Below, piece by piece: positions 4,635 through 32,478 of a DNA stretch of 32,483 nt. A program made the translations under genes and the position numbers. The DNA comes from Symploca sp. SIO2E6. GTDB lineage: Bacteria; Cyanobacteriota; Cyanobacteriia; Cyanobacteriales; Coleofasciculaceae. The notes under the pieces were generated by a model. The model had not been told where the DNA came from, ran no database searches, and was given only the letters and a program-made list of their open reading frames with translations. The stretch covers positions 1 to 32,483 of the forward strand of contig JAAHGR010000032.1 in the NCBI GenBank assembly GCA_010672425.1. Direction: 5' to 3'. The stretch's first letter is position 1. Each line of letters opens with the position of its first letter.

Positions 4635-5573
4635 ATGGTTGCACAGCTTCAGACCCTCTCTATTACCTGGCAAAAGCTGCCGGATAGTTTCCAACTGCCA
4701 GATGACCCTGTGGATAACATTAACCAACCTGCGATCGCTGCAGCCCTGACCGATAGTTTGCATCAGGCCAATCGCCTCCCCGACAGTGCCATCACCATCA
4801 CCAACTACGGCGTTTGTGCTACCGTCAACGGCCAACTAGTAGTCAAAGCCCCTGACTGGGCTTACGTGGCCAAAACTTGGGCACCAATAGCTGAACTGCA
4901 ACGTAGTTTCACTCCTCATTTAGAGGGAGAAGTACCGGCAATTGTCATGGAATTTCTCTCGGAAACTGAGGGTGAAGAGTATTCACCAAAATCCACCTAT
5001 CCCCCTGGCAAATGGTTCTTTTACGAAAGTATCCTGCAAGTTCCCTACTATGCGATCTTTGACCCTGTTTCTGGGGATCTAGCAGTCTACCGTCTTGATG
5101 CTACAGGCTGTTATCAAACTCAGATTATGGAAGAAAACGGCTTGTATTGGATTGAGTCGATGAATCTGTTCTTAGGAGTGTGGCAGGGGAAACGGGAAAC
5201 GCGAAGGGGTTACTGGTTGCGATGGTGGGATGCTGAGGAAAATTTGTTATTGTGGGGAACAGAGCAGTCAGCACGAGAACGACAACGAGCTGAGCAAGAG
5301 TCCTTACGAGCTGAGCAAGAGTCCTTACGAGCTGAGCAAGAGCGCTCACGAGCTGAGCAAGAGCGCTCACGAGCTGAGCAAGAGCGCTCACGAGCTGAGC
5401 AAGCCGAGCAATTTCTGGTAACAGAGCATCAACAATTAGAACAAGAGCGTTTGCGAGCTCAGCTTGCTCAACAAGCATGGGAGCAGGAGCACAAGAAACG
5501 CTTGAAATTATTAGAGCAATTGCAACAGTTAGGGTTTGACTTAGAGCAACTGCAATCTGAAGATAGGGAATAG
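4635..5573 (+). CDS. Uma2 family endonuclease (DUF820) with C-terminal RAEQE(R/S)x heptad repeat
   Basis: Fold-typical segments APDWAYVAKTW, PAIVMEFLSETEGEEY, PPGKWFFYESILQVPYYAIFDP; coiled-coil tail. Confidence 0.88.
   Translation: MVAQLQTLSITWQKLPDSFQLPDDPVDNINQPAIAAALTDSLHQANRLPDSAITITNYGVCATVNGQLVVKAPDWAYVAKTWAPIAELQRSFTPHLEGEVPAIVMEFLSETEGEEYSPKSTYPPGKWFFYESILQVPYYAIFDPVSGDLAVYRLDATGCYQTQIMEENGLYWIESMNLFLGVWQGKRETRRGYWLRWWDAEENLLLWGTEQSARERQRAEQESLRAEQESLRAEQERSRAEQERSRAEQERSRAEQAEQFLVTEHQQLEQERLRAQLAQQAWEQEHKKRLKLLEQLQQLGFDLEQLQSEDRE
5286..5406 (+). repeat. 21-bp coding tandem repeat (cgagctgagcaagagNNctNa), about 5-6 copies
   Basis: Nearly identical 21-mers encoding RAEQESL/RAEQERS. 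Confidence 0.93.
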
Positions 5574-8548: not shown

Positions 8549-9275
8549 CTAATTTACTGCCTTGATCTGTCCTCTAATCTGAAAATAGACACGGGGACGC
8601 GGGGACGCGGAGAAAGTAATTTTTATGCATCGCTGGTGTCCAAAGCGATCGCAACAGAATCAGGCACGTCTATCTTGATATAACCTTTTCTGGAGTATGG
8701 TCAAAAAATTAGGTCTTTCTCAATTACTATATATGCGCCAAAGATTTCCCATTATATAAAATAGTAGAAAGTTAGTATAAAGTCAACCCCTTTTTTTGTA
8801 GGGGCGGGTTTAGAGATATCTTATCGCAATCGACGATAAGCATCATACAAAACCCGTCCTTTCGATAACCTTGCCGATTGATGGAATGAATCGGGGGTGG
8901 ATATCAGAAAATTCGACAAGAATCAAATAATCCCGTACATTCGTAGGAGCGGGTTGAGAGATATCTTATCGCAATCGACGATAAGCATCATACAAAACCC
9001 GCCCTTTCGATAACCTTGCCGATTGATGGAATGAATCGGGGGTGGATATCAGAAAATTCGATAATAAGCCCAAAAAGTCCGTACATTCGTAGGGGCGGGT
9101 TTAGAGATATCTTATCGCAATTGACGATAAGCATCATACAAAACCCGCCCTCTCGATAACCTTGCCGATTGATGGAATTAACTGGGGGTGGATATCAGAA
9201 AATTCGATAATAAGCCCAAAAAGTACGTACATTCGTAGGGGCGGGTTTAGAGATATTTTATCGCAATCGACGATA

Positions 9276-9400
9276 CAGCAGTTTGCTCTGCTATGCGGTA
9301 CAGTTTTGATCCCCCTAAATCCCCCTTAATAAGGGGGACTTTTGGAAGAAATAAGGGGGACTTTTGGAAGAGTGTACTTCATTACAGCGCAAAGCGCTGT
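9276..9400. repeat. Insertion 1 in the fourth tandem copy, containing CCCCCTTAATAAGGGGG and ACAGCGCAAAGCGCTGT hairpins
   Basis: Interrupts the otherwise contiguous cgacgata|agcatcata. Confidence 0.75.
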
Positions 9401-9643: not shown

Positions 9644-9760
9644 TGGGTGGGTTTTACCAGCCTGACTTGACATTACCATTATCCCTTACTAAACTTTATA
9701 GTAAATCTACTGAACAGTTTAGTAATTATATTAGGATTTCTCAATCTTTAGGGGGATGTG

Positions 9761-10951
9761 ATGCAAGACGCTGTTTACAACAAAAGTTTTACCCTACAGT
9801 CTGGGGCACGACAATGGTTAGCGATCGCGATCATTGCCCTGTTAGGTGTAGGAGGAGCAGCGGTTTATTGGAAATTGCGATCGCAAGCTGCCGTAACTCC
9901 CGAATCTCCTGCAATTGCTTTACCTGAGATCAAAACCGTAACTGCTTTAGGACATTTAGAGCCAGACGGCGAGGTGATTTACCTCACTGCTCCTACTTCT
10001 GGCCAAGAGAGCCGGATCGAGCAACTGTTAGTACAGGAAGGGGATGCAGTGCAAGCTGGGCAGGTAATTGCCATCTTGGATAGCCGCGATCGGCTGCAAG
10101 CCAGCTATGACCAAGCTCAGCGAGATATCGAAGTTGCCCGTGCCCGACTCGCCCAAGTAGAAGCTGGGGCTAAAGCAGGGGAGATCGCTACCCAACAAGC
10201 CGAAATTGCTCGTTTAGAGGCTGATCAACAAGCTCGAATTGCCTCTCAACAAGCTATCATTGAGCGATTGCAGGCGGAAGTTCAAAATGCCGAAGTCGAA
10301 TATCAGCGCTACGACTATCTCTATCAGGAAGGAGCAATCTCAGCTTCTAATCGCGATGCTAGACAGCTTACCCTGCAAACCACCCAGCGGAATTTACAAC
10401 AAGCCCAGGCAGACCTAACCCGATTGCAATCTACCCGCTCACCAGAACTTGCCAAAGCCCAAGCTACCTTATCGAGCATCACCGATGTGCGAACTGTGGA
10501 TATACAAGTTTTGCAAGCGGAACTCAATCGAGCGATCGCGGCAGCAGATCAAGCAAAAGCGACCCTAGAACAAGCTTTTGTCCGCTCACCGCAAGACGGC
10601 ATCATTATGGATGTCCATACCCAAGCTGGGGAAGTGATTGCGACAGAAGGCATTGTCGAAATTGGTCAAACTGACCAGATGGTAGCGATTGCTGAAGTAT
10701 ACGAAAGTGACGTGCAAAAAGTCAAGCCTGGTCAGGCGGCACGGATCTTTAGCAGTGCCCTACCCGATGAACTGCGCGGCACTGTCGCCTGGGTAGATCT
10801 CAAAGTGCAGAGACAAACAGTAATAAACACCGACCCTAGCGAAAATATTGACGCCAAAGTTGTCGAAGTGCGAGTTCAACTAGACCCACAATCAAGTCAA
10901 GCCGCTGCTAAATTTACTAACTTACAGGTTGAGGTGGAGATTGGGAATTGA
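9761..10951 (+). CDS. devB: DevB-like ABC exporter membrane fusion protein (HlyD family)
   Basis: TALGHLEPDGEVIYL, lipoyl-like and coiled-coil segments; followed by devC and devA. Confidence 0.9.
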   Translation: MQDAVYNKSFTLQSGARQWLAIAIIALLGVGGAAVYWKLRSQAAVTPESPAIALPEIKTVTALGHLEPDGEVIYLTAPTSGQESRIEQLLVQEGDAVQAGQVIAILDSRDRLQASYDQAQRDIEVARARLAQVEAGAKAGEIATQQAEIARLEADQQARIASQQAIIERLQAEVQNAEVEYQRYDYLYQEGAISASNRDARQLTLQTTQRNLQQAQADLTRLQSTRSPELAKAQATLSSITDVRTVDIQVLQAELNRAIAAADQAKATLEQAFVRSPQDGIIMDVHTQAGEVIATEGIVEIGQTDQMVAIAEVYESDVQKVKPGQAARIFSSALPDELRGTVAWVDLKVQRQTVINTDPSENIDAKVVEVRVQLDPQSSQAAAKFTNLQVEVEIGN

Positions 10952-10954
10952 GAA

Positions 10955-11030
10955 TTGTTGTTTGTTGTTGGTCGTTTGTTGTTTGTTGTTGGTCGTTTGT
11001 TGTTTGTTGTTTGTTGTTTGTTGTTTGGGA
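10955..11030 (+). repeat. Heptad array TTGTTTG/TCGTTTG
   Basis: Read directly. Confidence 0.93.
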
Positions 11031-11065
11031 ATTGGCAATGGAGAATTGGTGAGTGTAAATATCTC

Positions 11066-11173
11066 CTTGTCTTCCTTGTTTTCCTTGTCTTCCTTGTCTT
11101 CCTTGTCTTCCCATCTCCCTATCTCCCTATCTCCCTATCTCCGCGTCCCCGCGTCCCCGCGTCCTCGCGTCCC
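11066..11173 (+). repeat. Composite period-9 (CTTCCTTGT)n then period-8 (TATCTCCC)n then period-8 (CGCGTCCC)n tracts
   Basis: Read directly. Confidence 0.93.
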
Positions 11174-11198
11174 CTTAAGTAAGTGATTCAACTAGATT

Positions 11199-12374
11199 AT
11201 GATACATTGGTTGCACTCCCTAAAACGACGTACACCCCTTGGCTGGTTGCAGTTGAGCCGCCATAAAGGACGGTTGCTGGTGGCTCTATCTGGTATCGCT
11301 TTTGCTGATGTGTTGATGTTCTTGCAGATTGGGTTTCAAGAATCCCTCTACGAGAGTAATACCACAATTCGGGCTACTCTCGATACCGACATTGTCTTGG
11401 TGAGTCCCAAAGCCAAAAACACCCAAAATTTATCGACTTTTGCCCGTCGTCGCCTCTATCAAGCCAAAGATATTCCCGGTGTTGCGACTGCCCATCCCCT
11501 CTACTCCAGCATCATCACCTGGAAAAATCCTGAAACTCGACAGGATGCTGCTTTACAAATTATTGGCTTTGACCCCGATTATCCGGCTTTTAATTTGCCA
11601 GAGATGAATCAACAACTCGACAAGATTAAATTACCCTATGTGGTGCTGTTCGATCGCACCGCTAGGGGTAACTATCAACAGACTATTACCCAAATTGAAA
11701 ATCAACAATGGGTGAGTACTGAGGTGGAAAAGCGTACTATTACCGTGCGGGGTCTTTTCTCCCTAGGAGCCTCCTTTGGTACCGATGGACTACTAGTAAC
11801 TAGTCATCAAAATTTTCTGCTGTTGTTTCCTCGGCGAGATGCAGGTAGTGTTAGTTTAGGTTTGATTGATGTCGAATCCGGTTACGACTCTCAACAGGTA
11901 GCCCAAGCATTACAACAGTATTTACCCAACGATGTCGAAGCTATGACTATTGCCGATTTTATTGAAGACGAGCAACAATATTGGCGCACGGAAAGTCCGA
12001 TTGGCTTCATTTTCGGCTTTGGGACAACGATGGCTTTTGTCGTGGGGGTAGTGATTGTCTATCAGGTGCTTTCTACAGATGTGAATGCCCACCTCAAGGA
12101 ATATGCCACCTTTAAAGCCATGGGTTATCGCCATAGCTATTTACTCAGCATTATCATTGAAGAAAGCATCATTATGGCTTTGCTCGGTTTTATTCCTGGA
12201 TTGCTCTTACCCATAGGACTATATCATATAGCGGCTAAGGCAACATCACTCCCAATTTATATGACTCTAACACGAGCCATTACTGTACTGATGCTAACGA
12301 TTATCATGTGTCTATTATCCGGTGCGATCGCTACCCGAAGACTCCAGTCTGCCGATCCTGCCGATATGTTTTAA
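11199..12374 (+). CDS. devC: DevC-like ABC exporter permease (FtsX-like)
   Basis: MIHWLHSLKRRTPLGWLQLSRHKGRLLVALSGIAFADVLMFLQIGFQ...; position in operon. Confidence 0.92.
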   Translation: MIHWLHSLKRRTPLGWLQLSRHKGRLLVALSGIAFADVLMFLQIGFQESLYESNTTIRATLDTDIVLVSPKAKNTQNLSTFARRRLYQAKDIPGVATAHPLYSSIITWKNPETRQDAALQIIGFDPDYPAFNLPEMNQQLDKIKLPYVVLFDRTARGNYQQTITQIENQQWVSTEVEKRTITVRGLFSLGASFGTDGLLVTSHQNFLLLFPRRDAGSVSLGLIDVESGYDSQQVAQALQQYLPNDVEAMTIADFIEDEQQYWRTESPIGFIFGFGTTMAFVVGVVIVYQVLSTDVNAHLKEYATFKAMGYRHSYLLSIIIEESIIMALLGFIPGLLLPIGLYHIAAKATSLPIYMTLTRAITVLMLTIIMCLLSGAIATRRLQSADPADMF

Positions 12375-13160: not shown

Positions 13161-13207
13161 TATCAAGTTCGGTCATTTTCTTTTTGGACTGAAGTCCTAC
13201 TACTGCT

Positions 13208-13303
13208 CGTTACTTATTACTCATTACTCATTACTTATTACTCATTACTCATTACTCATTACTCATTACTTATTACTCATTACTTATTACTCATTACTCA
13301 TTA
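13208..13303 (+). repeat. Heptad array (CTTATTA/CTCATTA)n, about 13 units, touching the next start codon
   Basis: Read directly; ATG at 13305. Confidence 0.95.
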
Positions 13304-13304
13304 C

Positions 13305-18253: not shown

Positions 18254-18284
18254 AAAAAACTCATTGTTGGGGGAGTGTGGGGAG

Positions 18285-18340
18285 TGTGGGGAGACAAGGG
18301 AGACAAGGGAGACAAGGGAGACAAGGGAGACAAGGGAGGA
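18285..18340 (+). repeat. Period-9 array (GACAAGGGA)n, about 5-6 copies
   Basis: Read directly. Confidence 0.93.
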
Positions 18341-18344
18341 ATTC

Positions 18345-18478
18345 CCAATTCCCGATTCCCAATTCCCAATTCCCAATTCCCAATTCCCAATTCCCGATTC
18401 CCAATTCCCAATTCCCAATTCCCAATTCCCGATTCCCAATTCCCAATTCCCAATTCCCAATTCCCAATTCCCAATTCC
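18345..18478 (+). repeat. Heptad array (CCCAATT/CCCGATT)n, about 19 copies
   Basis: Read directly; creates artefact ORFs on both strands. Confidence 0.96.
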
Positions 18479-18608
18479 AATCTTGCCCATCGATCCCTGT
18501 AATGGGATGATGGGTATATAACTTTTGGGCAACCGAGAGCCATCGAGTTCTAATTCAAACAAAATCTAACTTTAAACCTTAGTTCACCAGAGTCATTCAA
18601 GAGAAATT

Positions 18609-24382: not shown

Positions 24383-26251
24383 TCAATTCTTAGGATAAGC
24401 CTTAAGCATTTTACCAGTTTGATAGACATGAAACACTTCTGTAACTGCTCCTCCCCGTCGAATAGGCACTGTGGCAATTTCCTGGAAACTGCTAAAGTAA
24501 GGCCGATAGGAATCCGTTAGTTCCAAGAGTTCATGAAAACGCTCTAGGGTAACATATAGCCCTGCTTTTCCTAGCCATTGTTCTGGTTCAGACCAAAAAG
24601 CAAAACCTCGTACATCTTCACCAAAGCAAGTAATTGGTGTAGTAGTAATCGGACTCAGTGCCATACCTACCATGCCACCTAGGTAAAAGCCATTGGTGAA
24701 GACAAAGCCAGAATCCTGCAAAGCCTGGTTGAGGATAGGGGATTCCTGAAAACCACGCCGCAGTTGCATAATATCGATCAATTCTGTCGAAGGGTCATTT
24801 TTAACTGGTAAGAATCCTCCTAGTAGAGCATATTGACCCGACTTTTGCAATGTACCGGTGGTTACATGTAAGAGTACCAAGAGGATACAGCTGCCCAAAA
24901 ATAGTGCTGAACCTTGCAACCAGCGTCGTACCCAACGCCGAGATTGCTGCTGCCAGCCAAGAGCCTTGTATCCTAGTAACAAAGTTAACCCCCAAAATCC
25001 CGGCATTGACCAAGTTGGTAAAATTGGTTGGGCTCCTCCTAGAAGAGTAAATCCGATTGTTAGGGGTAGGGATACCCATAAAATCAACAATTGCTTGGTT
25101 GTTTGTTGTTGGTTGTTGGTTGTTTGTTGTTGGTTGTTGGTTGTTGGTTGTTGGTTATTGGTTGTTTGTTGTTTGTTGTTGGTTGTTGGTTGTTGGTTAT
25201 TGGTTGTTTGTTGTTTGTTGTTTGGGAATTGAGAGTTGGCAATATCTCCCTTATCCTCCTTGTCCTCCTTGTTTCCCTTGTCTTCCATCTCCGCGTCCCC
25301 ACGTCCCCGCGTCCCCGCGTCTCCCCATCTCCCCATCTCCCATAAAGCTCGCCAACTTACCCACCACAAAGGTAATCCCATGGTTGGAAACAAATAACCT
25401 ATCCCAGCTAGAAAAGTAACTGCTAGCCCTAGCAAATCATAGCTACTTTTGGTTTCCTCTGACCCTGGTTGAAAGCGCAAGGATAATTGAAAGCGGAAAG
25501 ATACCCAATCATGCTGCATATTCCAAAACCAAATGGGAAAGAGGGTGAGGAGAAATAAGCCTAACCCTAACCATGCCCAAGGGGAGAGTAAGGCACAGCG
25601 ATGCTGAGGACTGGTTAAACAAAAACCTAGTAGTCCCAAACCTAAAATAAAGCCATGATATTTAGCCAAACAAGCCAAGCCGACTAAAACACTCAGGATG
25701 GCTAAGCGATAACTGGGTTGGTAGGAAATAAACTGGTTTTCTCGTGAGGATGACAAGGAAATATCGGCATTTTTCCCCAAGCAACCTGGTTGCTGTCCGA
25801 AAAACTCGTAAGCTGCCAAACAGAAACTAGCCGACCAGAAAAACATCAGAGGAGAGTCTGGTAAGCTGAGAACACCAAAGCCAACCTGAAAAATGGGAAT
25901 GATGGTAGCGATCGCTAAAGTTAGTCTAGCAGCTTTCACACCAAAGAGTTGTGCACTAGTCAGATAGAGGAGAAATAAACTACCGGTATACAAAATCAAG
26001 GTTGCCAGACGGATCGTGAATTGAGAGACAACTCCTGTTACCCAAGGACCAAAGCCAGTCGTGAGAGCTACCAATACTGGATGATCAAAATAACTCCAAT
26101 CCAAATGCAGGCTGTAGAGGTAGTAGTAGGTCTCATCAATGCCTGGATAGAGACAAAAAGCAATGATGCTGCGAAATAGTAGTCCCCCAAGCAGTAACCA
26201 AAGTACTAACTGATTAGCTGGATCAGCCAACCATTTTTGAACCGTCTGCAT
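24383..26251 (-). CDS. Glycosyltransferase family 39-like (ArnT/PMT-like) membrane protein with an in-frame repeat insertion
   Basis: LYPGIDETYYYLYSLHLDWSYFDHPVLVALTTG motif, many TM segments; start set at MQTVQKW because the longer N-terminus is repeat-encoded. Confidence 0.88.
   Translation of the reverse strand: MQTVQKWLADPANQLVLWLLLGGLLFRSIIAFCLYPGIDETYYYLYSLHLDWSYFDHPVLVALTTGFGPWVTGVVSQFTIRLATLILYTGSLFLLYLTSAQLFGVKAARLTLAIATIIPIFQVGFGVLSLPDSPLMFFWSASFCLAAYEFFGQQPGCLGKNADISLSSSRENQFISYQPSYRLAILSVLVGLACLAKYHGFILGLGLLGFCLTSPQHRCALLSPWAWLGLGLFLLTLFPIWFWNMQHDWVSFRFQLSLRFQPGSEETKSSYDLLGLAVTFLAGIGYLFPTMGLPLWWVSWRALWEMGRWGDAGTRGRGDAEMEDKGNKEDKEDKGDIANSQFPNNKQQTTNNQQPTTNNKQQTTNNQQPTTNNQQQTTNNQQQTTKQLLILWVSLPLTIGFTLLGGAQPILPTWSMPGFWGLTLLLGYKALGWQQQSRRWVRRWLQGSALFLGSCILLVLLHVTTGTLQKSGQYALLGGFLPVKNDPSTELIDIMQLRRGFQESPILNQALQDSGFVFTNGFYLGGMVGMALSPITTTPITCFGEDVRGFAFWSEPEQWLGKAGLYVTLERFHELLELTDSYRPYFSSFQEIATVPIRRGGAVTEVFHVYQTGKMLKAYPKN
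25084..25345 (-). repeat. Composite short-tandem-repeat cassette inside the GT39 coding sequence
   Basis: (TTGTTGG/TTGTTTG)n, gggaattg, (CCTCCTTGT)n, (GCGTCCCC)n, (ATCTCCCC)n on the + strand; encodes ~79 aa including NNQQPTTNNKQQTT. Confidence 0.93.
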
Positions 26252-26292
26252 GAAATTACCTTTGCCCTTGATCAAAATGTGTACTAATAGAT

Positions 26293-26385
26293 ATATAGCG
26301 TTTCTCATACTTGTGAGGTTTTGGGAATTGGGAATGGGGAATTGGGAATAGGAGATGTACCTCACGGATACAAGAACTGCTATAT
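26293..26385. repeat. Foldback element with ~27-bp imperfect arms ATATAGC...GTGAGGT / ACCTCAC...GCTATAT and a heptad array in the loop
   Basis: 20 of 27 arm positions pair by my alignment; loop 26320-26358 is (GGGAATT)n-like. Confidence 0.7.
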
Positions 26386-26408: not shown

Positions 26409-27527
26409 TTACCCAGAACTATTTCTGAGGAAAACTAACCCACTATACAACTGAAATGCCGGGTCCCAAGGTGTTTGTTCCCAGCGAGACAGGTTAATGT
26501 AAGACGGTAGATGTCCCAACATATCTGGGTAGTCGATTGCAGTATTCGCAAAAGTAGTAAAATCAGACCAGATTGGGAGTTCAGGTAATTTACGATTGAG
26601 GAAATCCAGTAAACTGTTCCATTTGCTTCTCGTAGTTCCTTGCCCAAGAGCAGGTTCTGGTGACCCCTTGAGTTGGGAGTTGGACTGTAGTGAACTAAGA
26701 GCAATTCCCTGCTGAAATTGATAATGGCGATCGCATAAGCGAATAATACTGTTTCTAGAGGGCAAATGTAAGTCACAAAACTGTGCATAGTCCAGGGTTT
26801 TGGTTTTCCGCTGTAATTTGCGGCGCACATCCATCTCCACAACTTCTTCAAACAGCGGCAGTAGTCCTTCTACTCTTTGAGAGATTTCGGACCAATGGAA
26901 AGTCAGGGAACCCAACTGTTCTTGGGGATTACGGCAAAAAATAGTAGCTCCTTCGTAACTGATTTCGGAAAAATAATTGAGGCTAAAAACATTAATTTTC
27001 CGAATATCTGCTAGAGCCACACTAAAACAAGGAATCTCGGCTTGGCGTAAGGACGAAGCATAAAATTCCAGTTCCCCCACCAGTCCTGTACGGTAAAGAC
27101 GCCAACCCCTACTAGGCAGTTGCAAGCGAGCACTATAAGGATCTAGCTGCATAATCCTAGCTAATTTTTGAGCAGCTGTCTGTTTTACTTCTGTAGGAAC
27201 AGCTTCTAGGATAAATACCCCTAGTTCCTGGCTGTCGGGAGTAGCAGTTGCCTGAGCAAGAGCCTGCTGACGTTGTTGTTGTTCTAGTGATAGCAAGCGC
27301 TCTAATCCCTGACGCGCCTGGGACATAATCTTAGGATTAGTGGTACTTTTGAGTAATTGTCGGTAGTTATCTTCTGCTGCTTCCAGCTTACTAGTTTCCT
27401 CATATAAGCGTCCCAGATAGAGCCTAACCCAAGGGTTATCTGGCTCCTGTTTCAGCAGCTGTTTGAGTAATCGAGCAGCTGTTTTATACTCCTTACGCTT
27501 CAAAGCATCGGCAACTTCGTTAATCAT
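26409..27527 (-). CDS. TPR-containing protein
   Basis: DALKRKEYKTAARLLKQLLKQEPDNPWVRLYLGRLYEETSKLEAAEDNYRQLLK. Confidence 0.8.
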   Translation of the reverse strand: MINEVADALKRKEYKTAARLLKQLLKQEPDNPWVRLYLGRLYEETSKLEAAEDNYRQLLKSTTNPKIMSQARQGLERLLSLEQQQRQQALAQATATPDSQELGVFILEAVPTEVKQTAAQKLARIMQLDPYSARLQLPSRGWRLYRTGLVGELEFYASSLRQAEIPCFSVALADIRKINVFSLNYFSEISYEGATIFCRNPQEQLGSLTFHWSEISQRVEGLLPLFEEVVEMDVRRKLQRKTKTLDYAQFCDLHLPSRNSIIRLCDRHYQFQQGIALSSLQSNSQLKGSPEPALGQGTTRSKWNSLLDFLNRKLPELPIWSDFTTFANTAIDYPDMLGHLPSYINLSRWEQTPWDPAFQLYSGLVFLRNSSG

Positions 27528-27768
27528 TGTTGTTTGTTATTGGTTGTTTGTTGTTGGTTATTGGTTGTTTGTTGTTGGTTATTTGTTGTTTGTTGTTGGT
27601 TATTTGTTGTTTGTTGTTGGTTATTTGTTGTTTGTTGTTGGTTATTTGTTGTTTGTTGTTGGTTATTTGTTGTTTGTTGTTTGTTGTTTGTCGTTTGTTG
27701 TTTGTTGTTTGTCGTTTGTCGTTTGTTGTTTGTCGTTTGTCGTTTGTCGTTTGTTGTTTGTTGTTGGT
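27528..27768 (+). repeat. Heptad array TTGTTTG/TTGTTGG/TTATTTG/TCGTTTG, about 34 units
   Basis: Read directly; starts at the base adjacent to the ATG of the minus-strand TPR gene. Confidence 0.96.
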
Positions 27769-27775
27769 TATTAAT

Positions 27776-27938
27776 TATTACTCATTACTCATTACTCATT
27801 ACTCATTACTCATTACTTATTACTTATTACTTATTACTCATTACTCATTACTCATTACTCATTACTCCTTACTCCTTACTCCTTACTCATTACTCATTAC
27901 TCATTACTCCTTACTCCTTACTCATTACTCATTACTCC
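27776..27938 (+). repeat. Heptad array (CTCATTA/CTTATTA/CTCCTTA)n, about 23 units
   Basis: Read directly; overlaps the rsmE stop codon. Confidence 0.96.
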
Positions 27939-28680
27939 CAGCAACTAAAGACATGGCAACAATCGGAGCAGTAACGGCTCGCAGAATGAGATTTCCTAAA
28001 GACACAGGTTGGAATCCCGCTGCCGTGGCTTGCTCTACTTCGGTAACTGTCCAACCACCTTCTGGTCCGGTAGCTACTACTACTGATGGGAGTTGATGGT
28101 TGTGAGGTTGAACAGTTTCCCATAGTAATTCCCGATTTAATAAACAATTTAGGAGATGAGGAGCGTCACTGCGAGCTACACAAATATAACGATGAGCGTT
28201 TGGGTTGTTAGTCAGTTGAATACCCGTGGTAAAATTAACTGGCTCCAGAACTGTTGGTACAACCTGACGTTCCGATTGCTCTGCCGCTTCCTGAGTGAGC
28301 CGTCGCCAACGTTGAATTTTTTGGTGGCTGGGATTGAGTAGAGTGCGATCGCTCTTCACTGGTATAATAGTAGTTGCACCTAACTCCGTTGCCTGAGACA
28401 CCACCTGCTCAAATCCACTGCCTTTTGGCATAGCCACCATCAAAGTCACCTCTAAGGGCAACTCATTCTCAACACAGAGAGATTCAATAATTTTAGCTTG
28501 GGTTAGACTCTCTGTTAACTCACACAGCCACCAGCTTCCTTGTCCATCCATCGCAATAAAGCTCTCACCACTACCTAGTCGCAATACTCGCACCAGGTAG
28601 TGCTGTTGTACATCAGTTAGGGATATCTGACTGTTTTGTTGTTGTGCTGGTGTAATCACCAATCTTTGTAGCTTAGCCAA
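27925..28680 (-). CDS. rsmE: 16S rRNA (uracil(1498)-N(3))-methyltransferase RsmE
   Basis: HYLVRVLRLGSGE, KGSGFEQVVSQATELGATTIIPVKSDRT, VVATGPEGGWTVTEV. Confidence 0.94.
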   Translation of the reverse strand: MAKLQRLVITPAQQQNSQISLTDVQQHYLVRVLRLGSGESFIAMDGQGSWWLCELTESLTQAKIIESLCVENELPLEVTLMVAMPKGSGFEQVVSQATELGATTIIPVKSDRTLLNPSHQKIQRWRRLTQEAAEQSERQVVPTVLEPVNFTTGIQLTNNPNAHRYICVARSDAPHLLNCLLNRELLWETVQPHNHQLPSVVVATGPEGGWTVTEVEQATAAGFQPVSLGNLILRAVTAPIVAMSLVAGSNE

Positions 28681-28873: not shown

Positions 28874-30856
28874 TTACGATACCTTGACGCAAACAACTCG
28901 AAAACCGACGTTGAGGTTCCGGAATCCGGGTTCATAGTAGACGCGATAGGCACTTCGACAGTTCTTGGGTTGGTCGTGCCAAGACCCCCCCCGCAGCACA
29001 CGAGAACGGTTATCACTCTCATTTTCGGCTACCCAGGCACTCCCATCCATTGGTGCTCCATTATAGTTGTCATGCCAACGATCCTCACACCATTCCCAGA
29101 CATTCCCATGCATATTCGATAAGCCAAAAGCGTTGGGTACTCGAAAACTGCCCACGGTGATCGTTTTGTGTCGATACTCTCCGGTGGGGGCTGAGCCGTA
29201 GGTATAATTACCGTTGTAGTTAACTACATTAGTGGTAATTGTTTTGCCCAAGTGGAAAGGGGTTGTTGTGCCAGCACGACAGGCATATTCCCATTGAGCT
29301 TCGCTGGGTAGCCGGTAGGTATGTCCGGTTTCTCGGGAGAGTCGAGCACAGAACTCCTGAACATCATACCACGATACCCGCTCTACTGGTAAATTATCAC
29401 CTTTGAAGTTAGAGGGATCAGCATTTAAATTGCGATTAACTTTATCTAAGGTGGCTACGGCTTTCCACTGTGCCTGAGTGATGGCAAATTTACCCACATA
29501 GAAAGGCTTGATGCTTACTGGGTGTAGAGGACTTTCCTGACGACCTCTTCCCTCCTCAGTATCTGAGGAACCCATGATCAAGGAACCACCAGGAATTGCT
29601 ACCATTTCCAGTCGGATACCCGGGCCTAAGTCTTCGGTAAAGGATTTGGCTTGGCGACGTTTGCGACTATTTTCTTTTCCTTGGGAGTCTAGGGTTACTA
29701 GCTCAAAATCAAAGTCTTGAAGTTTCTTTCCGGAAGGAGGAGGAGGTAAATCTTTCCAGTTTATAGTTTGGGAGTAGGTGAGGGCATGATGGACAATTAC
29801 TCCTCCCACTAACCCAGCAACACCCAAACCAGCCACCCCAATAAATTGTCTTCTGTTCCATCTACTTCCAAGACTTGTAAATTGTCCTATTTCTGTTTTT
29901 AACAATGTACCAAGACTTGTAGACTGTCCTATTTCTGTTTTGGAGGATGTACGATCATTAAGTATTTGCTTAATTTCTGCCAATCGTTGTAAAATTTCCT
30001 GAGTATCCGCCGGACGTTGATTCGCTGAATGGCTCATCAACTTATCGATAAAATCGGCCAATTGAGGCAAAAGATTAGGAGTACAATAGCGCCAGTTTAA
30101 CTTATTATTTTGGGCATCGTAAATTGTGGGATCAGTCGGTTGCTTACCTGTCAGCAAAAAGACAAAAGTACGTCCTAAAGCAAAGAAATCTGACTGCGGT
30201 ACTGCATGATTGTTAAGTTGTTCTGGGGATGTGTAACCAAACGAAGCGATCGCTGTTACTTGTCCAGCTGGTTGTTTTTCCAAGTAGGTAGGAGTAATTG
30301 CTCTGGCAGAACCAAAATCAATTAACACTAACTGTCCATCTGATCTGAGGATAATATTCGACGGCTTAATATCCCGGTGGAAAAACTGTTGCTGATGCAC
30401 AACCTGTAGAATTTCTGCCAACTGCTGGAGCCATTTTAGAGCTAAGTCCTGATCAATCGGCTCATTCTGCCGCTGTTGCTGATATTCCTCCAAATCCAAA
30501 CCTTCAATCTGTTCCATCACCAGGCAATGTAAGGGTTGCTTGCTCTTTCTGGCAAAGTAGGTAAAGTATTCGTATCCCTGAGGAATACCCGGATGATGTA
30601 GCTGCTGAAGAACTCGCGCCTCTTGTTGAAATAATTCAATAGCTCTAGGTTCATCTTGCTTAATCAGAACTTTGAGTACTTTAGGTTTACTATCTTGACT
30701 CACTTCATAAGTTTTACCAAACCCCCCTTTCCGACTGAGTAACCGATTTACCCGATATCGTCCTATCAGCAGTAATTCTGAACCACAGGCTTGACAGAAG
30801 AGGACATGATCGGGATTTTCCGGATAGGGACAGTTGGGATTAATACAGAGACTCAT
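28874..30856 (-). CDS. Ser/Thr protein kinase fused to a formylglycine-generating-enzyme/SUMF1-type domain
   Basis: Zn-ribbon-like CxxC N-terminus, FFHRDIKPSNIILRSDGQLVLIDFGSAR, then MVAIPGGSLIMGSSDTEEGRGRQESPLHPV...SEAQWEYACRAG...GFRVVCV. Confidence 0.92.
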   Translation of the reverse strand: MSLCINPNCPYPENPDHVLFCQACGSELLLIGRYRVNRLLSRKGGFGKTYEVSQDSKPKVLKVLIKQDEPRAIELFQQEARVLQQLHHPGIPQGYEYFTYFARKSKQPLHCLVMEQIEGLDLEEYQQQRQNEPIDQDLALKWLQQLAEILQVVHQQQFFHRDIKPSNIILRSDGQLVLIDFGSARAITPTYLEKQPAGQVTAIASFGYTSPEQLNNHAVPQSDFFALGRTFVFLLTGKQPTDPTIYDAQNNKLNWRYCTPNLLPQLADFIDKLMSHSANQRPADTQEILQRLAEIKQILNDRTSSKTEIGQSTSLGTLLKTEIGQFTSLGSRWNRRQFIGVAGLGVAGLVGGVIVHHALTYSQTINWKDLPPPPSGKKLQDFDFELVTLDSQGKENSRKRRQAKSFTEDLGPGIRLEMVAIPGGSLIMGSSDTEEGRGRQESPLHPVSIKPFYVGKFAITQAQWKAVATLDKVNRNLNADPSNFKGDNLPVERVSWYDVQEFCARLSRETGHTYRLPSEAQWEYACRAGTTTPFHLGKTITTNVVNYNGNYTYGSAPTGEYRHKTITVGSFRVPNAFGLSNMHGNVWEWCEDRWHDNYNGAPMDGSAWVAENESDNRSRVLRGGSWHDQPKNCRSAYRVYYEPGFRNLNVGFRVVCVKVS

Positions 30857-30954
30857 TGGAATTTAGAATTGATAATGGGGAATTGGGAATTGGGAATTGT
30901 TTACCCATCTCCACGGTTTGTCGGCTAAGGGATTTTAAAGGCATAAGTACCTAC

Positions 30955-30981
30955 CACCTAACACCTAACACCTAACACCTC
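30955..30981 (-). repeat. Heptad array (GTTAGGT)n on the minus strand, providing the stop of the next CDS
   Basis: cacctaacacctaacacctaacacctc. Confidence 0.9.
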
Positions 30982-32478
30982 ATTCCTAAGACAGACAACC
31001 CGAAAACCAATACCTTTATCCTTGAAAAATGGTGCGTCGCCGTGGCGGAAGGTACTACGACAGTCCCAGGGATTGTAAAACCAGGAACCCCCGCGTACTA
31101 TGCGACAAGGATTATTCTGATCATCTTTTAACCAAGCACTACCATCTTTGGGAGCTCCATAGTAATTGTTATGCCAATGATCCTCACACCATTCCCAGAC
31201 ATTACCATGCATGTCATATAAGCCAAAAGCATTGGCTACTTGAAAACTCCCTACTGGGGTAGTTTTTCTTCGATCCTCTCCCCTGAGACCAGAACCGTAG
31301 GTATAGTCATTATGGTAGTTAGCCAAATCAGTGTTAATCGTCTCCCCAAAGTGGAATGGGGTTGTTGTGCCAGCGCGACAGGCATATTCCCATTGAGCCT
31401 CACTAGGTAATCGGTAGGTACGTCCGGTTTTTCTGGAGAGTCTGGCACAGAATTCTTGAGCATCAAACCACGATACCCGCTCTACTGGTAAATTATCACC
31501 TTTGAAGTTAGAGGGATCAGCATTTAAAGAGCGACTAACTTTGCGTAAGGCGGCTACGGCTTTCCACTGTGCCTGAGTAATCGTAAATTTCCCCAAATAG
31601 AAGGGTTTGACAGTTACTGAGTGCTGGGGAATTTCCTCAGCAACTCGTCTCTTCTCCCTATCTGGGGAACCCATCATAAAAGTACCACCAGGGATTGCCA
31701 CCATCTCCAGCAGGATTCCCTTACCCAAGTCTTCGGTAAAGAAATTTGCTTGGCAGAGATTGCGACTATTTTCCTTACCCTGGGAGTCTACGGTGACTAC
31801 TTCAAAGTTAAAGGATTGGAGTTTGATATCCCCGGGTTGAGGCGAATTAGAAAACCAGTCAGCGATTCTCACCAATGGGGTTTTTCGTGAAGAAGACAAC
31901 GACTTATCAGCCTTTCCCCCAAAGAAACCTGCTTTCTTCACTGATGCTTGAGCAGAATTTCCCTCACTTCCACTCTTCCTGAGCAGTGGTGGCGGATTGA
32001 CTATCCGGTCAATCTCTGCCAACCGTTGTAAAATTACCTGAGTATTCGCCGGACGTTGACTGGCAACACGCATCATCAACTCATCGATAAAGTCTGCCAA
32101 TTCCGGTACAATATCAAGACAATGAGAGCGCCAGTTTAACTGATCATTGAGAGGGTCATAAATTGCTGCATCGTTTGGTTGCTTACCCGTCAGCAGAAAA
32201 ACAAAGGTGCGTCCTAAAGCAAAGAAATCTGACTGGGGTACTGCTCGATAGTTAAACTGCTCTGGGGGTGTGTAGCCAAAGGAAGCAACCCCGGTAACTT
32301 GTCCTTTTACTTGTTTAAGCTGATAAGTAGCAGTCATTTCCCTAACTGAACCAAAATCAATCAAAACCAACTGTCCATCTGTCCTGAGGATAATATTCGA
32401 TGGCTTAATATCGCGGTGGGAAGAGTTCTGCTGTGGCACAACGTGCAGAATTTCTGATATCGGAAGATCACACCTCAT
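30958..32478 (-). CDS. Second kinase-FGE paralogue lacking the kinase N-lobe (truncated at or near the window edge)
   Basis: Starts SEILHVVPQQNSSHRDIKPSN; HRD and DFG present, no glycine loop or VAIK-type lysine; FGE-like domain intact. Confidence 0.85.
   Translation of the reverse strand: MRCDLPISEILHVVPQQNSSHRDIKPSNIILRTDGQLVLIDFGSVREMTATYQLKQVKGQVTGVASFGYTPPEQFNYRAVPQSDFFALGRTFVFLLTGKQPNDAAIYDPLNDQLNWRSHCLDIVPELADFIDELMMRVASQRPANTQVILQRLAEIDRIVNPPPLLRKSGSEGNSAQASVKKAGFFGGKADKSLSSSRKTPLVRIADWFSNSPQPGDIKLQSFNFEVVTVDSQGKENSRNLCQANFFTEDLGKGILLEMVAIPGGTFMMGSPDREKRRVAEEIPQHSVTVKPFYLGKFTITQAQWKAVAALRKVSRSLNADPSNFKGDNLPVERVSWFDAQEFCARLSRKTGRTYRLPSEAQWEYACRAGTTTPFHFGETINTDLANYHNDYTYGSGLRGEDRRKTTPVGSFQVANAFGLYDMHGNVWEWCEDHWHNNYYGAPKDGSAWLKDDQNNPCRIVRGGSWFYNPWDCRSTFRHGDAPFFKDKGIGFRVVCLRNEVLGVRC

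Follow-up and report, generated by a model that had tools for sequence, protein, structure and literature searches.

The gap between the devB-type and devC genes in the window analysed here, a stretch of 32,483 nt from Symploca sp. SIO2E6, carries a patchwork of short repeats that a preliminary description had also recognised inside a glycosyltransferase gene of the same window, which raises the question of whether such a patchwork was copied from place to place or grew independently at each. Sequence reading and a repeat scan found the same composite in both places on the + strand, at 10940-11174 in the gap and at 25095-25341 in the gene. Along one strand it runs from block A (TTGTTTG, a 7-mer) through block B (GGGAATT, 7) and a short spacer to blocks D (CTTCCTTGT, 9), E (CATCTCCC, 8) and F (GCGTCCCC, 8). 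The likeness of the two copies was borne out by global alignment: the score was 197.5, whereas the reverse complement gave -103 and the reversed sequence 14. We consider it reasonably probable (roughly 0.6) that the two loci are copies of a dispersed compound minisatellite, A7-B7-core-D9-E8-F8, whose history would combine ancestral descent, turnover in place and array-anchored transfer of blocks between copies.

The devB-devC copy is the easier of the two to read. The devB-type gene (9758-10951, + strand; TIGR02971 heterocyst_DevB, E 1e-104) precedes devC (11199-12374, + strand; TIGR01185, E 1.7e-139), and the copy starts with two B-like units ahead of the A array, the devB stop codon (10949-10951) falling within the first of them. 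All blocks lie on the + strand: about 10 copies of the TTGTTTG/TTGTTGG heptamers of block A (10955-11027, TRF), degenerate heptamers of block B reading GGGAATT-GGCAATG-GAGAATT (11024-11049), a non-repeat B-D core, GGTGAGTGTAAATATCTCC (11048-11066), about 5 nonamers of block D (11064-11111, TRF), about 4 octamers TATCTCCC of block E (11109-11142, TRF) and about 4 octamers of block F (11141-11174, TRF). Predicted folding of the copy is confined to local structures, namely a small hairpin at the B-core and short hairpins in F. In Symploca sp. SIO1C2 (G004), which together with Symploca sp. SIO2C1 (G005) provided the same-genus comparison genomes, the corresponding gap reads GTTTGTTGTTTGGGAATTG(GGAATTG)n and continues with an array of TTTTGAA; the two genomes have the A-B part in common, but not the D-E-F part. 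Upstream of devB, at 8798-9280, the window also holds 3.3 copies of a tandem repeat with a 146-nt unit.

The second copy lies in frame in a GT39/PMT_2-type membrane glycosyltransferase gene (24383-26365, - strand; PF13231, E 5.9e-11, and ortholog alignment), in a loop between hydrophobic segments, where the - strand reads EMGRWGDAGTRGRGDAEMEDKGNKEDKEDKGDIANSQFPNNKQQTTNNQQ... and the + strand gives the order A>B>short core>D>(E)F>E. Block A comprises 18 heptamers with a 42-nt higher-order period (25095-25222, TRF) and is followed by a B remnant with a core that is 7 nt shorter (25224-25249, from the sequence and the alignment), by block D (25249-25287) and by the E/F blocks (25287-25341), the last two delimited by TRF and ortholog alignment. 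The same unit order had been claimed for both copies, and this holds for A>B>D; the tails differ, the devB-devC copy ending in E and F and the GT39 copy in F and E, with a short E unit before F. Of the non-repeat spacers that had been put forward as shared, ttggcaat did not survive inspection, since alignment and contexts reveal no homology between the two loci there. TTGGCAAT is no single shared spacer: in the devB-devC copy it belongs to block B, as a variant unit that lies upstream of the B-D core, and in GT39 it is the join of B to the shortened core (TTGG[TGAGTGT]CAATATCTCC).

These two copies are members of a large family, and as a pair they are not special. The genome of SIO2E6, a draft assembly of 1437 contigs, contains 59 BLAST matches to the devB-devC copy, self included (E up to 1e-3), and the best non-self match (89% identity over 169 nt) is on a different contig and is not the GT39 copy. 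For the A-B join GTTTGGGAATTG this genome has 72 occurrences, against 4 for a backward control; the join is by itself no proof of copying, because the heptamers TTGTTTG and TTGGGAA are in the same 7-nt register on TTG. Sampling of the genome was incomplete and in part selective, covering 361 kb of selected contigs plus the loci; it yielded 46 composites with both A and D, a few of which are overlapping extracts of a single locus; in the array census of these 361 kb, period 7 accounted for 176 of 404 arrays. Array lengths may be wrong throughout, because these are draft genomes whose contigs frequently end in the repeats.

Array classes were then set blind to order and adjacent same-strand pairs tallied, which gave A/B before D/E/F in every case, 29:0 in SIO2E6, 7:0 in SIO1C2 and 17:0 in SIO2C1 (total 53:0), counts that overstate independence because orthologous-site copies and copies in histidine-kinase paralogs are not independent of one another. 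Samples of five other genera contained the same kinds of array singly and no forward-order pair of this type. A search of 391 genomes of the order with an A-B-D pattern returned 18, 16 and 7 matches in the same-genus genomes (controls 2, 0 and 2); outside the genus it gave at most 4 per genome, near the control and at chance level. Among the genomes sampled, the compound repeat is restricted to one genus of marine filamentous cyanobacteria, whose members carry the labels Symploca and Caldora. The first 400 kb of a large SIO1C2 contig, which had not been picked for composites, contained 9 of them, and extrapolation from this single 400-kb sample suggests about 200 composites per genome.

Comparison of the same sites between species indicates how individual copies may have changed. 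In most outgroup genera the GT39 loop is short and without these arrays, whereas SIO1C2, SIO2C1 and Caldora SIO3E6 carry the F/E block and, after it, a unique linker ending in ...DLAAKQLLILW or similar; where that linker stands, the window genome alone has D-core-B-A. Site counts, which are weak, place the window beside SIO2C1 (11 sites) and pair SIO1C2 with Caldora (9 sites). On that grouping the simplest account makes the linker ancestral and has D-B-A gained later. The GT39 copy would then have been built in stages, F/E being older and D-B-A having replaced the linker in the window lineage, and the gained blocks sit beside F/E in canonical order. The preliminary interpretation as copying is thus supported as far as shared descent is concerned, although on different grounds from those first given (the order, the strand and the B-D core); a single cassette pasted into GT39 is not supported, as F/E is already present in the three relatives. 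The SIO2C1 gene (L236) has in addition a 24-nt in-frame insert, GCTTGCAGCAGCGTTTCGCTATCG, beside the F block, which the other species lack.

A third window composite at 18268-18480 (- strand) reads D-B with an GGGGAGTGT array beyond D; in two relatives the order is unchanged and block A is present as well, all three species agree in strand, and the window has lost A and expanded B. At 27525-27939 (+ strand) the window has a long related array, A>C (C = ATTACTC), where the array of two relatives, on the same strand, is short and made up of A alone. Another C-family array, (CTCATTA)n, lies at 13206-13304, and SIO2C1 holds about 20 copies of this family, about 95% identical over 99 nt on separate contigs, a near-identity that suggests recent spread or homogenisation. 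On contig C1061 of SIO2E6, three histidine-kinase ATPase domains each carry a composite in the same loop (NAIKFT..V.LRV - insert - IIFEVEDTG.GI), and a further composite lies inside a receiver domain; the orthologous sites in SIO1C2 and SIO2C1 have inserts in the same place and order with other lengths and sometimes other blocks, and one SIO2C1 site is filled by unrelated heptamers. Orthologous sites in general keep the order and differ in unit numbers and block sets. In SIO1C2, the receiver/kinase inserts of L151 (G004:C24) and positions 5781-5924 of L095 show a short dispersed TTTGCGCAGCATGGTGAGCAAAGCGAGG-like repeat nested in composites with the frame kept.

One rival possibility is that the composite is an element of the MITE, small-dispersed-repeat or Rickettsia palindromic (RPE) type, moved whole by an enzyme encoded elsewhere, its arrays drifting afterwards. 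Dispersed copies that share the core at many unrelated sites, genes included, are what such an element would leave behind. However, the composite ends on either side in a simple array (TTGTTTG, GCGTCCCC), the two are not mutual complements, and no inverted repeats were seen; neither a target duplication nor a clean empty site was found when these were sought at the devB-devC and GT39 loci, the other aligned sites likewise have no target duplication, and the alignable sites in relatives hold related arrays or linkers with no clean empty site among them. Since related species moreover share sites and the GT39 copy is staged, we regard movement as a transposable unit as unlikely, although it is the rival that survives best.

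Still less likely, in our judgement, is independent growth, in which slippage at each locus and a mutation bias would have repeated both the units and their order. Block B can indeed arise from A through the common TTG heptamer phase, and the GT39 linker of the relatives is filled by differing heptamers (AATTCTC in Caldora SIO3E6, ACCTTCG in SIO1C2). What independent growth leaves unexplained is the non-repeat core at a dozen loci, the D9-E8-F8 order of units of unlike period, and the restriction to one genus of a compound whose single arrays are widespread. The core GGTGAGTGTAAATATCTCC is found in many composites and is missing or shortened in many others. A 14-nt core pattern, GTRTMAATATCTYC, matched 24 times in SIO2E6 (control 0), 14 times in SIO1C2 (control 0) and 3 times in SIO2C1 (control 2), and 12 of the 13 SIO2E6 matches inspected read B-array, GGTGAGTGTAAATATCTCC or a near variant, D-array. 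Matches adjoined a composite or related arrays in 6 of 8 cases in SIO1C2 and in all 3 in SIO2C1, compared with none of 11 in other genera. This core is the strongest evidence that the composites are of common descent, which is also supported by an order and a strand of the blocks that stay fixed across three species and many unrelated loci.

Many copies lie inside genes. With an in-frame composite defined by at least 60 open codons on each side, 15 of 54 composites in the SIO2E6 sample qualified, as did 13 of 20 in SIO2C1 and 5 of 9 in SIO1C2. All 15 from SIO2E6 are in the F'-E'-D'-B'-A' reading and none in the opposite one, and one SIO2C1 copy is open in both. The coding reading (ETRGRGDAEMGRWGDKEDKEDKGD...) gives a hydrophilic GRGD/KEDKG/NSQFP/NNQQTT linker, while the opposite strand would encode LFVVCCLL-like hydrophobic runs. 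The GAC|AAG frame is used by 56 of 64 D nonamers and at 20 of 24 loci, a bias consistent either with selection for the encoded peptide or with copying from one coding copy to another. The Pfam domains interrupted are UvrC, NFACT_N (NFACT/RqcH) and DUF1688, and other hosts include PriA (between the helicase domains), a Gfo/Idh oxidoreductase and a GH38 mannosidase that carries two inserts. The UvrC insert has an identical position in all three species, before DLxMIDGGKGQL, and different contents, long F'/E' + D' + B' + A' in the window genome, D'-B'-A' in SIO1C2 and F'/E'-B' in SIO2C1. The SIO1C2 uvrC gene (L330 on G004:C68) has a second in-frame insert of NNSPNVGAKQLG repeats that is lacking in the window genome. 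Elsewhere in the window, the ORF at 4635-5573 contains an in-frame 21-nt repeat (AEQERSR-like, 5285-5403), and the translations of two adjacent genes at 28874-32478 resemble serine/threonine kinases fused to formylglycine-enzyme-like domains.

The frequency of coding copies also weighs against a functional element selected between genes, such as a G-quadruplex, a terminator or a transcript-stability element, which we consider very improbable as an account of the family. The B arrays and the complement of E/F do form G3-G4 tracts with short loops that might adopt such structures, and the devB-devC copy is placed within an operon, but contents at the same site differ greatly between species and Rfam returned no family match for the region. 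A regulatory role for single intergenic copies is possible and is not needed to explain the family. The idea that misjoined repeats in draft metagenome assemblies created the composites, to which contigs ending within these repeats lend some colour, is extremely improbable, because the arrays are crossed by reading frames that go on into conserved domains, and sites and order are the same in three separate assemblies.

For the compound minisatellite that we favour, dispersed, old and lacking a transposase, the steps might be as follows. The copies would derive from one ancestral composite and would no longer jump as units. Slippage would shift unit numbers in place, and blocks would pass between copies through template switching, gene conversion or recombination wherever a common array offers an anchor, no recombination event as such having been observed. 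Because the transfer would be anchored in a shared array, neighbouring blocks should land in the right order, which would explain how D-B-A arrived correctly ordered beside F/E in GT39. Within genes, only the orientation that yields a stop-free hydrophilic linker would survive. The compound repeat itself probably serves no function in the cell, and what it brings about is linker insertion and length variation. A bolder extension, which we put forward only tentatively and hold to be rather unlikely, is that this transposase-less minisatellite propagates itself, its arrays anchoring recombination and its blocks spreading into gene loops as linkers, and that slippage by 7 or 8 nt acts as a frameshift switch of uvrC, priA and sensor kinases.

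Among known systems, the short tandemly repeated repetitive heptamers of cyanobacteria, which go by the name STRR, are the nearest: they too are heptamer arrays of filamentous cyanobacteria, many per genome and mostly intergenic, and blocks A and B would qualify. However, STRR are described as single arrays, whereas the compound repeat sets 7-, 9- and 8-nt units round a core in the fixed order A-B-D-E-F, is limited to one genus and is often in frame in genes. With MITEs and the small dispersed repeats of cyanobacteria it shares the many short genome-wide copies; its ends lack terminal inverted repeats, and no target duplications were seen at the sites aligned. Heptanucleotide repeats of the STRR kind, from Calothrix PCC 7601, are mentioned in PMC4692102, according to which the heptamers GGGAATC and GGGGA(C/T)T, known from Xanthomonas and from Nostoc PCC 7120, were shown to form G-quadruplexes. 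These G-rich heptamers are the type to which block B (GGGAATT) belongs, and PMC4692102 also reports that, in related species, they stand at matching places between genes while their unit numbers differ. They are unlike the compound repeat in being single-class arrays that are under-represented in coding regions as a whole, and the parts of the paper covered describe no ordered compound with octamers and nonamers. Selfish RPE repeats occur in frame in Rickettsia genes (review PMC10969869). Like them, the compound repeat is dispersed, in frame in unrelated genes (here UvrC, PriA, NFACT, DUF1688, GH38 and kinases) and tolerated as an extra peptide segment (PMC10969869). RPE are palindromic and about 150 bp long, whereas the compound repeat consists of non-palindromic arrays of variable length. 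In effect, by analogy, the two may be comparable. No account of in-frame compound repeats in cyanobacteria was found in the mostly non-subscription literature covered, and an earlier description of the compound order is possible. Bacterial tandem repeats are usually viewed as lone arrays growing by slippage; here, several arrays of unlike period form an ordered compound with a conserved core, in frame within proteins such as UvrC and PriA, and this offers a setting for following, stepwise and across related species, how dispersed minisatellites and low-complexity protein linkers originate.
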